Shown here one piece after another: positions 1,532-5,410 of a stretch of 5,410 nt of DNA. The DNA is taken from contig JAVEEB010000189.1 of NCBI GenBank assembly GCA_030840665.1, forward strand, positions 1-5,410, written 5' to 3'. Source of the stretch: Frankiaceae bacterium (GTDB lineage Bacteria; Actinomycetota; Actinomycetes; JAVEEB01). Position numbers and translations under genes: made by a program. Each line of letters starts with the position of its first letter. The first letter of the stretch is position 1. The notes below the pieces were generated by a model, which searched no databases, was not told the DNA's origin, and worked only from the letters and a program-made list of their open reading frames with translations.

Positions 1532-3373
1532 ATGCCGACGAGCCAACCGGCTGCGTCGTCGGCGAGGACCGGCCCGAGCGTCGCATCGAGCGAAGGTCTC
1601 AGCCGCCCGGTGTGGTTCGGCGACAGCGCACACCCTCTCTTCGGCTGGCTGCATGAGCCCAGCGAGACGTCCAACCGTGGTGGCGTCGTCCTCTGTGGCC
1701 CGCTCGCGAAGCAGTACGACACGACCTACTACACGCTGCGCCTGCTGGCCGAGGGTCTGGCCCGAGCGGGATTTTCCACGCTCCGCTTCGACTATCGGGG
1801 CACTGGTGACTCTGACGGGCTCGTCACCGACCCGTTCACCGTCGCGGCCTGGCACGCCGGCGTTGCCAGCGCAGCCGAACTACTGGACTCCCTGGGATGC
1901 CGGTCGGTCGCGATGGTCGGCCTGCAAGTCGGTGCACTCCTCGCTGCGCAGGGCGCTGCCAGCCGGTCGGCCGCGGGGGCTCCCGTCTCCGGTCTCGTGC
2001 TCTGGGACCCGCCGGCCTCGGGTGCGGCATTCCTTCGCGAGCAGCGGGCGTTCGGCGCGTTGGCGATGGGCGCCCGGCCCGGCGCGGACTCCTCCTTCGA
2101 ATCGCCGGCACAGTTGTGGACCGGGGAGATGGTCCGTGATTTGCGGCAGCTGATCATGCCGACGGCCGGCCTGCCGGCCGCGACGCTCGTGCTGAGCAGG
2201 GAGGGTGCCAATCTGGCGGCGCTCACCCGTGATGTCGCCGCGGCGACGGCGCTCGAGTGCGAGACGTTCACGGGACACGAGGACTTCTACGAACACGCCA
2301 AGGTCCCGCACGCGGCCGTGGATCGCATCGTGGACTGGTTCGACAGCCGGCCGTCGCCGTCGCCCCTGTTGCCCCTGTTGCCCGCACGCACAGAGACGTT
2401 CGCGGATACCGCTGTCGTCCACGCCGAGGACGGCACGCCGGTGACCGAACGCGCCGTCCGGCTCGGCCCCAACGACCTCTTCGGCGTCCTCAGCTCGGGC
2501 GCGGACGCGACAGGCCCGACGATCGTGCTCGTCGGCGGCTACGTCTACCCGCACACGGGGCCGGGTCGCACGTGGGTCCAGCTGGCACGCCAACTGGCGG
2601 CGACGGGCCATCGCGTGCTGCGACTGGATCTGAGCGGCATCGGCGACAGCGGGTTGCGACCGGGTCAGCTGCCGCAGCAGTACTTCGCGGCGGAGGGCGC
2701 GGAAGACATTGCGCACGCGGTGTCCGCAATCTCGCCGACCGATCCGCGCGACGTGATCCTCGTCGGCTTCTGTTCCGGTGCGTACGCCGTCATCGAAGCC
2801 GCCGCGATGCTGCGGCCCCGAGCGGTCGTGAGCGTGAACTACGTGCCGGAGTTCACGCCGCCCGAGCTCGTCGCCGGTGGGCCGGTTGACGAACGCCGGA
2901 ACGCTTTTGTGGCGCGCCCCCGCTGGATCGTGCGACTTCGCGAGCGCGGGCTGCTGCGCAGGCTTCGCGAAGTCGTCCCGGAATGGGGATGGCAGTTGCT
3001 CAACCGGCTGGGGATCGTTCCGTCACCGACGACGGGCTTCAAGGTCCTCCTCGCAGCGGGCGTTGCCACTCGCGCCCTGTCCGGTCCCGAAGACGCCGAG
3101 CTGTTCCTCGCTCGTGCCGGTCGGCAATTGGCGCGGATGGCGAAGACGGCACCTTTCTCCTTCACAGTCCTGGACGGTGTCGGTCATTCGGTCCTGTCCG
3201 TCATCGAGCGCCAGGCGGTCGTGACCGCCGTCATGCGCGAGGTGGCAGACCTGCTCGGGGACGGTGGCCCGGCAACGCCGACGGTCGACATTCCGGCCCG
3301 CCGGGTAGGCGGCAGCGCGGAGCCCGTCGAGGCCTTCGGGGACCTGCCGTCCGGCTCCAACACGGCCACGTAG
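1532..3373 (+). CDS. Tandem alpha/beta-hydrolase-fold protein, two-domain, unusual nucleophile elbows
   Basis: The 613-residue protein contains two alpha/beta-hydrolase domains in tandem, related by duplication. The equivalent blocks are LRFDYRGTGDSDG (84-96) and LRLDLSGIGDSGL (363-375). Domain 1 (about 25-272) resembles the hydrolases found with exosortase A systems and serine-peptidase-like S33 lipases. Its elbow is GLQVG (130-134), with Gln132 where a nucleophilic Ser is expected, so it may be non-hydrolytic. Domain 2 (about 287-575) has GFCSG (412-416), with Cys414 as in dienelactone-hydrolase elbows, plus a likely acid in GPEDAEL (Asp521) and a C-terminal GHS (His552). This domain is therefore probably the active half. 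A Pro/Leu-rich linker (273-284) joins the two. There is no signal peptide or membrane helix, so it is likely cytosolic. The substrate is unknown; release or transfer of a carrier-bound acyl group is a contextual inference. Confidence 0.87.
   Translation: MPTSQPAASSARTGPSVASSEGLSRPVWFGDSAHPLFGWLHEPSETSNRGGVVLCGPLAKQYDTTYYTLRLLAEGLARAGFSTLRFDYRGTGDSDGLVTDPFTVAAWHAGVASAAELLDSLGCRSVAMVGLQVGALLAAQGAASRSAAGAPVSGLVLWDPPASGAAFLREQRAFGALAMGARPGADSSFESPAQLWTGEMVRDLRQLIMPTAGLPAATLVLSREGANLAALTRDVAAATALECETFTGHEDFYEHAKVPHAAVDRIVDWFDSRPSPSPLLPLLPARTETFADTAVVHAEDGTPVTERAVRLGPNDLFGVLSSGADATGPTIVLVGGYVYPHTGPGRTWVQLARQLAATGHRVLRLDLSGIGDSGLRPGQLPQQYFAAEGAEDIAHAVSAISPTDPRDVILVGFCSGAYAVIEAAAMLRPRAVVSVNYVPEFTPPELVAGGPVDERRNAFVARPRWIVRLRERGLLRRLREVVPEWGWQLLNRLGIVPSPTTGFKVLLAAGVATRALSGPEDAELFLARAGRQLARMAKTAPFSFTVLDGVGHSVLSVIERQAVVTAVMREVADLLGDGGPATPTVDIPARRVGGSAEPVEAFGDLPSGSNTAT
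2351..2380 (+). repeat. Short tandem repeats encoding the interdomain linker
   Basis: CCGTCG occurs twice in direct tandem (2351-2362), followed by two perfect copies of the 9-mer CCCCTGTTG (2363-2380). They encode the linker segment SPSPLLPLLP between the two hydrolase domains. The repeat unit of 9 keeps frame, so slippage would change linker length without a frameshift. Confidence 0.6.
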
Positions 3374-3470: not shown

Positions 3471-3719
3471 GTGAGAGACGAGATCAAGGGTGTTCTGGCG
3501 GCTCACGGGCGTCTTTCGATGCCGATTGACGCGCTTACGGACGACACCGACCTGTACGAGGCGGGCATGACCTCGCACGCCAGCGTCACCGTGATGCTCG
3601 CGATAGAGGACACGTTCGACATCGAGTTTCCGGAGCGTCTGCTGCGCAAGGCGACCTTCAGCTCCGTCGCGGCGATCCGGGACGCCGTGACGCAGTTGAC
3701 CACTGCGGCGCCGGCGTGA
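3471..3719 (+). CDS. Acyl/aminoacyl carrier protein
   Basis: This 82-residue protein has the four-helix phosphopantetheine-carrier pattern. Helix I is around 2-12, followed by DDTDLYEAGMTSHASV (24-39), and helix II is LAIEDTFDIEFPERLL (43-58). The final segment, TFSSVAAIRDAV (62-73), is typical of carrier proteins. Ser35 is the attachment site for 4'-phosphopantetheine. The usual Asp-Ser is here Thr-Ser (GMTS), a variant I associate with carriers that partner amino acid:[carrier protein] ligases rather than with fatty-acid ACP. It starts with GTG, and its TGA overlaps the start of the next gene by 4 bp (GTGA at 3716-3719), which implies translational coupling. The probable role is to carry the amino acid loaded by the ligase two genes downstream. 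A phosphopantetheinyl transferase encoded elsewhere would be needed to activate it. Confidence 0.95.
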   Translation: MRDEIKGVLAAHGRLSMPIDALTDDTDLYEAGMTSHASVTVMLAIEDTFDIEFPERLLRKATFSSVAAIRDAVTQLTTAAPA

Positions 3720-4888
3720 CCGTGGACGCGCCCACCGTGGCCGACGCCGCCGCGCTCCTCGACAGCGCCCGGCGAGTCGGCCTGGACGCCGCGGGTCCGC
3801 ACGCGGCGGACGTGGACAAGCACGCACGTTTCCCCGTCGAGACGATCAGCGCCTTGCGGGAGGCCGGGCTGATGTCTGCCCTCGTGCCCGCCGAATTCGG
3901 CGGGGCCGGCGCGACGCTGCGCACGGTCAGTGAGGTCGTCACGATCTTGGCGCGGCACTGCAGTTCCAGTGCGCTCATCTACGCGATGCACCAGAGCCAG
4001 GTCGCCTGCCTCGTCCGGCACTCTCAGCAGGAGTCCGTCCGCGAGGTGCTGCGCGGCATCGTGGACGGGCAGTTGCTCGTCGCCTCCGCGACGACGGAGA
4101 TCGGCATCGGCGGGGATGTGCGCAGCAGCACCTGCGCCGTCGAGCGCGATGGCGACAACTACCGGCTGCGCAAGCAGGCACCCGTCATTTCGTACGGCGC
4201 CTTCGCCGACCTCATCCTGGCAACGGCGCGGCGCGACGTCGACAGCGCTCCCCACGATCAGGTGCTCGTCATCTGCCCGGCGGACGGGGTCGTACTGGAG
4301 CAGACGGGGTCGTGGGACACGCTCGGTTTTCGTGGCACCTGCAGCAACGGCTATCTGCTGACGGCCGAGGGGGACGCGTCCCTCGTCATGGCCGACCCGT
4401 ACGCCGACATCAGCAGCCAGACGATGCTCCCGGCGGCCCATCTCCTGTGGGCCTCGGCGTGGCTCGGCATCGCCGAAGAGGCCGCCGACCGCGCGCGCCG
4501 ATTCGTCCAGGCCGCAGCCCGGGCCAAGCTCGGCACGACCCCGCCCGGCGCGCTGCGGCTCGCGGAGCTTTTCGCCGAACTGCAGCTGCTCCGTGACCTC
4601 GTCGACGGCGCGCTGCGGCGATTCGAAGCGATCGCCGACGACAGGGAGGCGCTGTCCGGTGCCTCCGTGACGGTCGCCTTGAACAGCCTCAAGGTGTCCG
4701 CCTCGTCGTTGGCCGTCGACGTCGTCAGCCGCGCCATGCTGATCTGCGGGATCGCGGGCTACCGCGAGGACTCGCCCTACTCACTCGGCAGGCTGCTCCG
4801 CGATGCCTTCGGGGCCGAGCTCATGGTCAACAACGATCGGATCAGCCACCACAACGCGCAGCTGCTGCTCGTCGCGAAAGACGCGTGA
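3716..4888 (+). CDS. Acyl-CoA dehydrogenase-like flavoprotein
   Basis: At 390 residues this has the full acyl-CoA dehydrogenase length and order: an N-terminal helical domain, a beta domain and a C-terminal four-helix bundle. Landmarks are LVPAEFGGAG (56-65), TEIGIGGDV (127-135) where related enzymes contact FAD and substrate, SWDTLGFRGTCSNGY (199-213), and the C-terminal block GRLLRDAFGAELMVNNDRI (358-376). By-eye alignment finds no Glu at the catalytic-base positions used by medium-chain enzymes (the YEG region) or isovaleryl-type enzymes (helix G). The chemistry is therefore uncertain: alpha,beta-dehydrogenation with another base, oxidation at the amino carbon, or a flavin monooxygenase-like role. 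Flavoproteins of this family oxidise prolyl groups on carrier proteins in pyrrole pathways, so a tethered aminoacyl substrate is reasonable here. An in-frame GTG at 3722 is an alternative start; 3716 is chosen for the overlap with the carrier gene. Confidence 0.92.
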   Translation: MTVDAPTVADAAALLDSARRVGLDAAGPHAADVDKHARFPVETISALREAGLMSALVPAEFGGAGATLRTVSEVVTILARHCSSSALIYAMHQSQVACLVRHSQQESVREVLRGIVDGQLLVASATTEIGIGGDVRSSTCAVERDGDNYRLRKQAPVISYGAFADLILATARRDVDSAPHDQVLVICPADGVVLEQTGSWDTLGFRGTCSNGYLLTAEGDASLVMADPYADISSQTMLPAAHLLWASAWLGIAEEAADRARRFVQAAARAKLGTTPPGALRLAELFAELQLLRDLVDGALRRFEAIADDREALSGASVTVALNSLKVSASSLAVDVVSRAMLICGIAGYREDSPYSLGRLLRDAFGAELMVNNDRISHHNAQLLLVAKDA

Positions 4889-4889
4889 C

Positions 4890-5410
4890 ATGGACTCGGC
4901 GACGTTCCGCGACAAGCTGTTCGACGCGGGAGTGCTCATCCCGACCGGCGTCGACGGCCTCTACGGCCGATCCGGGACTTTCGAAGACGTCGTGACCGCA
5001 CTGGGCGAGCTGGTGGGCCGCGTCTCCGCTGACAAGACGTGGACTCGGGTGCGCTTCCCGCCGCTGCTCTCCCGGACGTCGTTCGAGGGCACCGACTACC
5101 TGAGGTCCTTCCCGAACCTCACCGGGTCTGTGCACACGTTCATGGGGGACGACCGCAAGCACGCGGAGCTGCTGGCGCTCGTCGACGCCGGCCAGGACTG
5201 GAGCCCGGCGCTGGAGCCGGCTGAGGTGGTCCTCTCGTCGGCGGCTTGCCACTCGCTCTATCCGACGTTGCGCGGGACTCTGGCGGCGCCGACGGTTCGC
5301 TATGACCTGTCCGGCTATTGCTTCCGGCACGAACCGTCCGTCGACCCGGCGCGGATGCAGTCGTTCCGGATGCACGAGCTGGTCGTGCTCGGCGACACCG
5401 ACACGACGCA
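4890..5410 (+). CDS. Amino acid:[carrier protein] ligase, N-terminal part (3' end beyond right edge)
   Basis: The ATG starts 1 nt after the flavoprotein stop, with a weak GAAAG 9 nt upstream. The frame is open for 173 codons to the edge. It matches the class II seryl-tRNA-synthetase-like ligases known from rhizobia, which adenylate a small amino acid and load it onto a carrier protein instead of tRNA. Landmarks are GVDGLYGRS (20-28), FPNLTGSVHTFMG (74-86), SSAACHSLYP (116-125) and GYCFRHEPSVDPARMQSFRM (142-161), the last being class II motif 2 with its ATP-binding Arg146. Cys120 and Glu163 are likely ligands of the active-site zinc that binds the substrate amino group; the third ligand would lie off-window. 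Such a short lead before the catalytic core implies no tRNA-binding domain. The specificity (Gly or Ala in characterised members) cannot be read from this part. Confidence 0.92.
   Translation, partial: MDSATFRDKLFDAGVLIPTGVDGLYGRSGTFEDVVTALGELVGRVSADKTWTRVRFPPLLSRTSFEGTDYLRSFPNLTGSVHTFMGDDRKHAELLALVDAGQDWSPALEPAEVVLSSAACHSLYPTLRGTLAAPTVRYDLSGYCFRHEPSVDPARMQSFRMHELVVLGDTDTT

Follow-up and report, generated by a model that had tools for sequence, protein, structure and literature searches.

A conserved cassette around an amino acid:[carrier protein] ligase in a Frankiaceae bacterium, with a predicted step of aminoacyl transfer to an amine

Passages of a review name Gly, Ala and Ser as the amino acids loaded by amino acid:[carrier protein] ligases and call the biological role of these enzymes unknown (PMC9437257). 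According to passages of another report, bll0957 (a ligase gene) and bll0958 (acd) are both upregulated in a phaR mutant of Bradyrhizobium, at the RNA and the protein level (PMC10888616). Carrier-bound amino acids are also substrates of flavoproteins with the acyl-CoA dehydrogenase fold. CaeB1 desaturates its carrier-bound amino acid using a conserved active-site glutamate, E372 (passages of PMC8149447), the prolyl oxidases Bmp3 and AnaB depend on the same glutamate, and ChmG, which has Met at that position, N-oxygenates prolyl-carrier (passages of PMC11177257). Here we describe a cassette in which such a ligase stands beside a carrier protein and an acyl-CoA-dehydrogenase-fold flavoprotein, found in a 5,410-nucleotide stretch of DNA from a Frankiaceae bacterium (GenBank assembly GCA_030840665.1, contig JAVEEB010000189.1). 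This stretch, called the window below, is the entire contig C102 of a draft genome (G000) of 2.77 Mb in 503 contigs that is 78% complete. We propose, and give the proposal an even chance, that the cassette charges the carrier with an amino acid, which is then likely oxidised in place, N-oxygenation being the most likely reaction, and probably transferred by way of a DUF1839 protein to an amine, for example an amino sugar.

Three plus-strand genes form the core of the cassette. The first encodes a stand-alone acyl/aminoacyl carrier protein (ACP; positions 3471..3719, GTG start; PP-binding and PRK07081 matches), the second the acyl-CoA-dehydrogenase-fold flavoprotein (ACAD; 3716..4888, GTG start; named from domain matches, alignments, a structure model and a fold search) and the third the N-terminal 173 residues of the ligase (LIG; 4890..5410, ATG start; matches to PRK07080 and PDB 3mey). 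The ACP stop and the GTG start of ACAD overlap by 4 nt (GTGA). The TGA of ACAD ends at 4888 and the ATG of LIG begins at 4890, leaving a gap of 1 nt. The LIG reading frame is still open at 5410 because contig C102 stops there. The cassette of carrier, flavoprotein and ligase observed in the window is thus confirmed. A search of four window proteins against known defence proteins (E up to 1e-10) gave no match.

The LIG half matched PRK07080 (amino acid--[ACP] ligase) at 9e-66 and 221.9 bits over profile positions 20-189 of 318, a score under the cut-off of 357, as would be expected with half of the protein beyond the contig end. Bll0957 of Bradyrhizobium (PDB 3mey, 1.7e-32) was the sole solved ligase matched, in two sequence forms. 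By comparison with what we take to be the zinc-binding residues of Bll0957, LIG carries zinc ligands 1 and 2, Cys120 (codon 5247-5249) and Glu163 (codon 5376-5378), together with the motif-2 Arg. The corresponding columns hold Cys in 53/53 and Glu in 53/53 rows of a ligase alignment that includes weak family members and has at least one gene twice (L020, L071). Here and in the other alignments, repeat loci, matches covering less than 60% of the model (except those of the window and of contig C447, described below), carriers below 25 bits and other proteins below 60 bits were omitted. An earlier sequence-only reading of the window had made its case depend on the third zinc ligand and motif 3. 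Two zinc ligands are indeed in the window; the third zinc Cys and the motif-3 Arg fall past the contig end and are intact in 52/52 other ligase rows. No second ligase fragment was found in genome G000.

ACP scored 103.3 bits against PRK07081, above the cut-off of 72, and also matched PP-binding. Its phosphopantetheine site is Ser35 (codon 3573-3575), a position that is Ser in 41/41 aligned carriers. No AcpS-type gene was seen in the window. At three other loci an AcpS-type phosphopantetheinyl transferase gene lies directly upstream of the carrier: L005 (8022-8519, by Pfam), L009 (7134-8549, clustered with the one of L005) and L087 (7298-7675, annotated). The matches to PRK07080, 3mey and PRK07081 bear out the earlier claim of a tRNA-synthetase-derived ligase beside its carrier, and the actinobacterial setting suggested at the time also holds. 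Judged by homology, LIG would charge the adjacent carrier with an amino acid.

The conserved unit is larger than ACP, ACAD and LIG, and its gene order is kept across three phyla. We scanned 84,980 named species genomes with exact peptide patterns from the LIG half, which reach close relatives only, and obtained 11 loci. Seven (L005-L011) have the order ACP-ACAD-LIG, two (L012, L013) the order ACP-LIG-HYD-ACAD, where HYD is a double alpha/beta hydrolase, one (L004) has ACP-LIG without ACAD, and one (L014) the ligase alone. The ligase family was found in 34 of 393 genomes of the class, 11 of them above the cut-off, and a ligase match in 59 of 72,556 plasmid records. We analysed 11 plasmid ligase loci from 10 genera, five reached through the ligase search (59 records) and six through a flavoprotein search (67 records; these have ACAD by choice); ACP, ACAD and ligase occur together in 11/11, and genes for DUF1839 and a GH2-like protein are also present in 10/11. 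Annotated plasmid examples come from Azospirillum argentinense, Rhizobium gallicum, Mycetohabitans, Caballeronia and Phyllobacterium. The gene neighbourhood, which the sequence-only reading had supposed to be conserved, is so in the 7/11 species loci and the 11/11 plasmid loci.

A class-wide search for DUF1839 (PF08893) matched the window's own genome, on contig C447 (L083). Bases 2-508 of C447 encode the C-terminal part of a DUF1839 protein (115.4 bits against a cut-off of 22.5, profile positions 147-312); the contig starts inside the gene, and the Cys-bearing N-terminal half is absent from this piece. An ATG 2 nt past the DUF1839 stop lies in the reading frame of a GH2-like gene. Gene order and orientation are as expected if a gap of ~0.9 kb, a length estimated from relatives, separates C102 from C447. 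DUF1839 and GH2 were missed by the sequence-only reading because the contig ends inside LIG. Downstream of GH2, C447 carries (4057-9255) genes that we named by reading their sequences as a fabG-type reductase, an enoyl-ACP reductase, a secreted CAP-like protein, a histidine kinase and a resuscitation-factor-like protein.

Of the 393 class genomes, 10 encode DUF1839, and the ligase is present in every one of these; against the 16 genomes with a strong ligase match, the association has a Fisher p of 3.7e-16, uncorrected for kinship. A draw from the phylum gave three DUF1839 genomes, all of them known from the class draw and therefore not independent, and added one genome (G659) with a strong ligase and no DUF1839. 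Chance neighbourhood, or a role in ordinary fatty-acid metabolism, could be argued from how common the individual families are, acyl-CoA dehydrogenase being the commonest name among the 120 flavoprotein relatives listed. The order conserved over three phyla and the ligase in 10/10 DUF1839 genomes speak against this explanation, which we consider close to negligible. Genomes G080 and G272 (L065, L068) each have two ligase genes ~10 kb apart with a carrier of their own, and one of the two is in a DUF1839 cassette. Next to the cassette of a Cupriavidus metallidurans megaplasmid, another DUF1839 gene lies on the opposite strand (L088, 15840-16796).

The candidate catalytic residues of DUF1839, C31, H147 and D158, are invariant in 19/19 rows; in a wider set of 26 readable rows, Cys is found in 25 and His in 26. 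The structure model of a DUF1839 relative gave a fold match to CcbD-like carrier-dependent amide synthases. On the basis of gene context, passages of PMC10318531 raise the possibility of an acyl-CoA-dependent action of DUF1839 on cell-wall glycans, and we found no description of the cassette, or of an assayed DUF1839 function, in the passages of open-licence literature retrieved. DUF1839 and GH2 hint at a fate for the aminoacyl group. The new elements here are a predicted amine-transfer step and the wider cassette.

ACAD passed the cut-offs of Acyl-CoA_dh_N, _1 and _2; its match to the middle domain fell short of the cut-off. Its structure model has a pLDDT of 89.1, and the fold search agrees with an acyl-CoA dehydrogenase fold. 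The closest named relative among the matches listed is a protein from a Frankiales metagenome-assembled genome, at 82% identity, which makes an actinobacterial host very likely. In dehydrogenases of this fold we take the catalytic base to be a Glu at the position of MCAD Glu376 or of IVD Glu254. We assigned the first position from alignments to three solved dehydrogenases (8i4p, 7w0j, 3pfd), in which Val371 of ACAD faces the Glu of the YEG motif, and from column counts: it is I/V/Y in 35/35 ACAD rows. The IVD-Glu254 position is Ala in the window and S/A/T/C/R in 35/35 rows, so that an acidic residue occurs at either position in 0/35. Across the 35 rows, the His92 of an AMH motif never varies, nor does an N close to the C-terminus; the R that follows is present in 34. 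The genome's own other ACAD matches were uninformative as a control for the missing Glu: one long match (L099) also has no Glu, and the other aligned badly. The missing Glu, together with the ChmG precedent, favours amine oxygenation over alpha,beta-desaturation.

ACP and ACAD remain paired in three plasmid loci in which no ligase was found (L086, L092, L096). This persistence gives indirect support to the earlier idea that the flavoprotein acts on a carrier-bound substrate. In the Rhodococcus plasmid locus L086, an AMP-binding protein gene adjoins the pair, and the ACAD is 59% identical to that of the window. The Streptomyces plasmid loci L092 and L096 combine the pair with adenylation-type enzymes in small biosynthetic clusters, and L096 also has an annotated flavin reductase. 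A distant ACAD in Acinetobacter (L093) lies beside a glycosyltransferase gene in a stretch where neither carrier nor ligase was found.

The pathway that we favour would have four steps. By homology, the ligase is predicted to activate a small amino acid with ATP and transfer it to the phosphopantetheine of ACP. The flavoprotein would then act on the aminoacyl thioester, oxygenating the amine rather than desaturating the alpha,beta bond. In the third step, which the DUF1839 fold suggests, the catalytic Cys of DUF1839 would accept the (oxidised) aminoacyl group and pass it to an amine; the model for this step is CcbD, which acts on carrier-bound proline and an amino-octose. In the last and weakest step, the GH2-like protein might handle an acceptor or product that is a sugar or glycoside, and misloaded or finished product might be edited or released by the Cys-type double hydrolase. 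A bolder form of the proposal, improbable as it stands, is that a widespread pathway, present from soil actinobacteria to rhizobial symbiosis plasmids, makes N-hydroxy-aminoacyl amides of amino sugars: the translation-derived ligase would supply a flavoprotein that N-oxygenates and DUF1839 acting as an amide synthase, an assembly resembling that of lincosamides, and this would be the missing physiological role of such ligases.

Several observations weigh against this pathway, and those on the flavoprotein bear on a second explanation: that ACAD is an unusual dehydrogenase which takes two electrons off the carrier-bound amino acid to give an imine or dehydroamino acid, perhaps with His92 or another residue as the base. 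Dehydrogenases lead for ACAD by sequence, VIA Z and Foldseek E-value. With the ACAD profile A1, six PDB chains, all named as dehydrogenases, matched at E up to 1e-22, and stricter thresholds listed nothing. Four of five alignments from this search end before the Glu position, and the fifth, to the dehydrogenase 7p98, has Thr there, so loss of the Glu is compatible with dehydrogenation. KijD3 (3m9v) appeared at rank 16 of the Foldseek results (E 5.9e-16, TM 0.83), with TM-scores of up to 0.82 for TdsC/DszC and 0.74-0.81 for the listed dehydrogenases; this fold match cannot separate an N-oxygenase from a dehydrogenase, because a dehydrogenase is rank 1 by E-value. We nonetheless regard dehydrogenation as somewhat unlikely. 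Both catalytic-base positions are non-acidic throughout the 35 rows, and the Glu serves in catalysis in CaeB1 and the prolyl oxidases (passages of PMC8149447 and PMC11177257). If the substrate is glycine, which stands in a table of the review (passages of PMC9437257), alpha,beta-desaturation is impossible. The dehydrogenation with a 2-Da loss that the sequence-only reading implied is accordingly not borne out.

The remaining points against N-oxygenation and transfer to an amine concern the assignments and the gene content of the loci. We infer loading, the type of oxidation, transfer and acceptor alike, and half of the ligase is seen in the window. The CcbD likeness of DUF1839 is a fold match, made with a model from a relative, and the DUF1839 profile A2 finds none of CcbD, CtaG and AziU3 (E up to 1). 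No amino-sugar or flavin-reductase gene was recognised by eye among the open reading frames of C102 and C447; a genome-wide search was not made. We also infer the link between these contigs, which were left unjoined. In 30 genomes examined for each flanking gene, the aconitase gene acn and the enoyl-ACP reductase gene share a contig in seven relatives (G001, G003, G012, G017, G024, G025, G029) and lie within 10 kb in G003 only; this synteny gives no support, which leaves the cassette order as the basis for the join. DUF1839 is missing from six of the 16 strong ligase genomes. Six loci (L006, L009, L012, L013, L070, L087) have ACP, ACAD and LIG without DUF1839, four (L056-L058, L060) combine ligase and ACP with neither ACAD nor DUF1839, three (L014, L064, L069) have the ligase alone, and L093 has ACAD alone. 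This variable content indicates a modular cassette. In L056-L058 and L060 the ligase is on the strand opposite its carrier, and the stretch includes a double hydrolase.

In the window, HYD (1532..3373, plus strand, 613 residues; Abhydrolase_6, Abhydrolase_1 and Hydrolase_4 matches) precedes ACP, and the start part of acn, named from its own sequence, occupies 2-1267 on the minus strand. HYD shows similarity to exosortase-A-associated hydrolases 1 and 2, with scores that stay under the cut-offs. Its C-terminal half has Cys414 (codon 2771-2773) in a nucleophile elbow G-x-C-x-G, a Cys in 18/18 rows; the N-terminal half has no Ser at its elbow, where R/G/A/Q stands in 18/18 rows. The family lies inside the cassette in L010 (Marmoricola sp. 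Leaf446), L050, L052, L053, L054, L059, L062 and L091. The hydrolase, which the sequence-only reading had named among the genes whose co-occurrence should be counted, is part of the set, though less constantly present, with 5/11, 7/18 and 4/11 loci in the three locus sets (4/11 being the plasmid loci with ligase). A free modified amino acid, released from the carrier by this hydrolase for use in a small molecule (a siderophore or antibiotic, for example) with DUF1839 as an accessory, would account for the invariant Cys, has a precedent in ChmF (passages of PMC11177257) and fits L006, L009, L012 and L013, which have the hydrolase and no DUF1839. Yet DUF1839 is present in 10/11 plasmid ligase loci and the hydrolase in 4/11, and the modelled DUF1839 fold would predict transfer rather than an accessory role; we find this route doubtful. 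The tasks of HYD and GH2 in the cassette are guesses. In GH2, at positions that we presume to be catalytic, the candidate nucleophile-like Glu is kept in 24/24 rows and the acid/base Glu in 22/24; with both kept in most rows, GH2 could not be called an inactive enzyme. No signal peptide was seen by eye in the GH2 sequences inspected.

The genomic settings bear on a further explanation, in which the cassette decorates surface polysaccharide by adding an aminoacyl group to the sugar of an exopolysaccharide repeat unit on the cytosolic face during assembly. Glycosyltransferases and/or the sugar-phosphate priming enzyme Bac_transf flank the cassette in L005-L009 and L055, and the GH2-like partner and the suggested action of DUF1839 on cell-wall glycans (passages of PMC10318531) point the same way. 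Pfam scans covered some flanking open reading frames at 11 of 29 loci, the remaining neighbours being judged by eye, and five of the 11 (L054, L059, L062, L065, L067) have no such sugar genes in the one or two frames scanned; three of the five have an mfd-like or class-I tRNA synthetase gene as neighbour. On the conjugative-type plasmid pRgalIE4872c of Rhizobium gallicum IE4872 (L051, 7551-14449), ACP-ACAD-LIG-DUF1839-GH2 lies between nif/fdxB and an annotated ACC deaminase gene, and the Brevibacillus cassette (L011) lies beside genes that look by eye like nonribosomal peptide synthetase genes. With the Rhizobium gallicum nif setting and the flanks without sugar genes, we gave up the view that every copy of the cassette is an exopolysaccharide module, and we rate polysaccharide decoration in general as rather unlikely. 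The varied settings indicate that the cassette is portable; a small glycoconjugate and a polysaccharide decoration are both candidates for its product. L011 also has a second carrier, and its GH2 gene, on the other strand, ends ~6 kb upstream of the carrier. A Priestia megaterium plasmid (L087, 2022-15845) shows another use of the trio, acpS-ACP-ACAD-LIG without DUF1839, amid a comX-like pheromone system, ATP-grasp-type genes, an alanine permease and an alanine racemase gene.

Overall, the earlier interpretation is partly supported. If carrier-bound oxidation followed by CcbD-fold transfer to an amine is correct, a tRNA-synthetase-like ligase family so far described without a known role would gain a purpose, its conserved partners giving the aminoacyl group a concrete fate, and DUF1839 would gain a predicted biochemical function. 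The nif-adjacent Rhizobium plasmid and the actinobacterial polysaccharide loci suggest that the product may matter in plant association or at cell surfaces.

Among known systems, Bll0957 (Bradyrhizobium ligase 1, PDB 3mey) shares the ligase family and the two visible zinc ligands with LIG. What the present analysis adds is the wider cassette, with DUF1839, GH2 and hydrolase, in an actinobacterium. In the Dlt system (DltA/DltC), too, an amino acid destined for the envelope is loaded onto a carrier. There the loader, DltA, is an adenylation enzyme, a class other than that of the cassette ligase, and the final Dlt transfer is made by membrane proteins. The butirosin system uses a loading chemistry different from that of the cassette, and BtrH belongs to a Pfam family other than DUF1839; a protein of L011 matches BtrH_N weakly, below the cut-off. 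What likens BtrH to the proposed DUF1839 step is its papain-like fold and its transfer of a carrier-bound acyl group onto an aminoglycoside (passages of PMC10318531). The lincosamide condensing enzymes CcbD/LmbD (PDB 7yn1, 9dkr) have no detectable sequence similarity to DUF1839 in a profile search with CcbD, and unlike the ligase here their loading enzyme is an adenylation domain (passages of PMC4351081). The chalkophomycin system differs in its loader, a proline-specific adenylating enzyme, and in a second ACAD that makes pyrrole, and its passages mention no DUF1839; it shares with the cassette a stand-alone carrier, a loading enzyme, a Glu-less flavoprotein of the ACAD fold and an alpha/beta hydrolase (ChmG/ChmI/ChmJ/ChmF; passages of PMC11177257).

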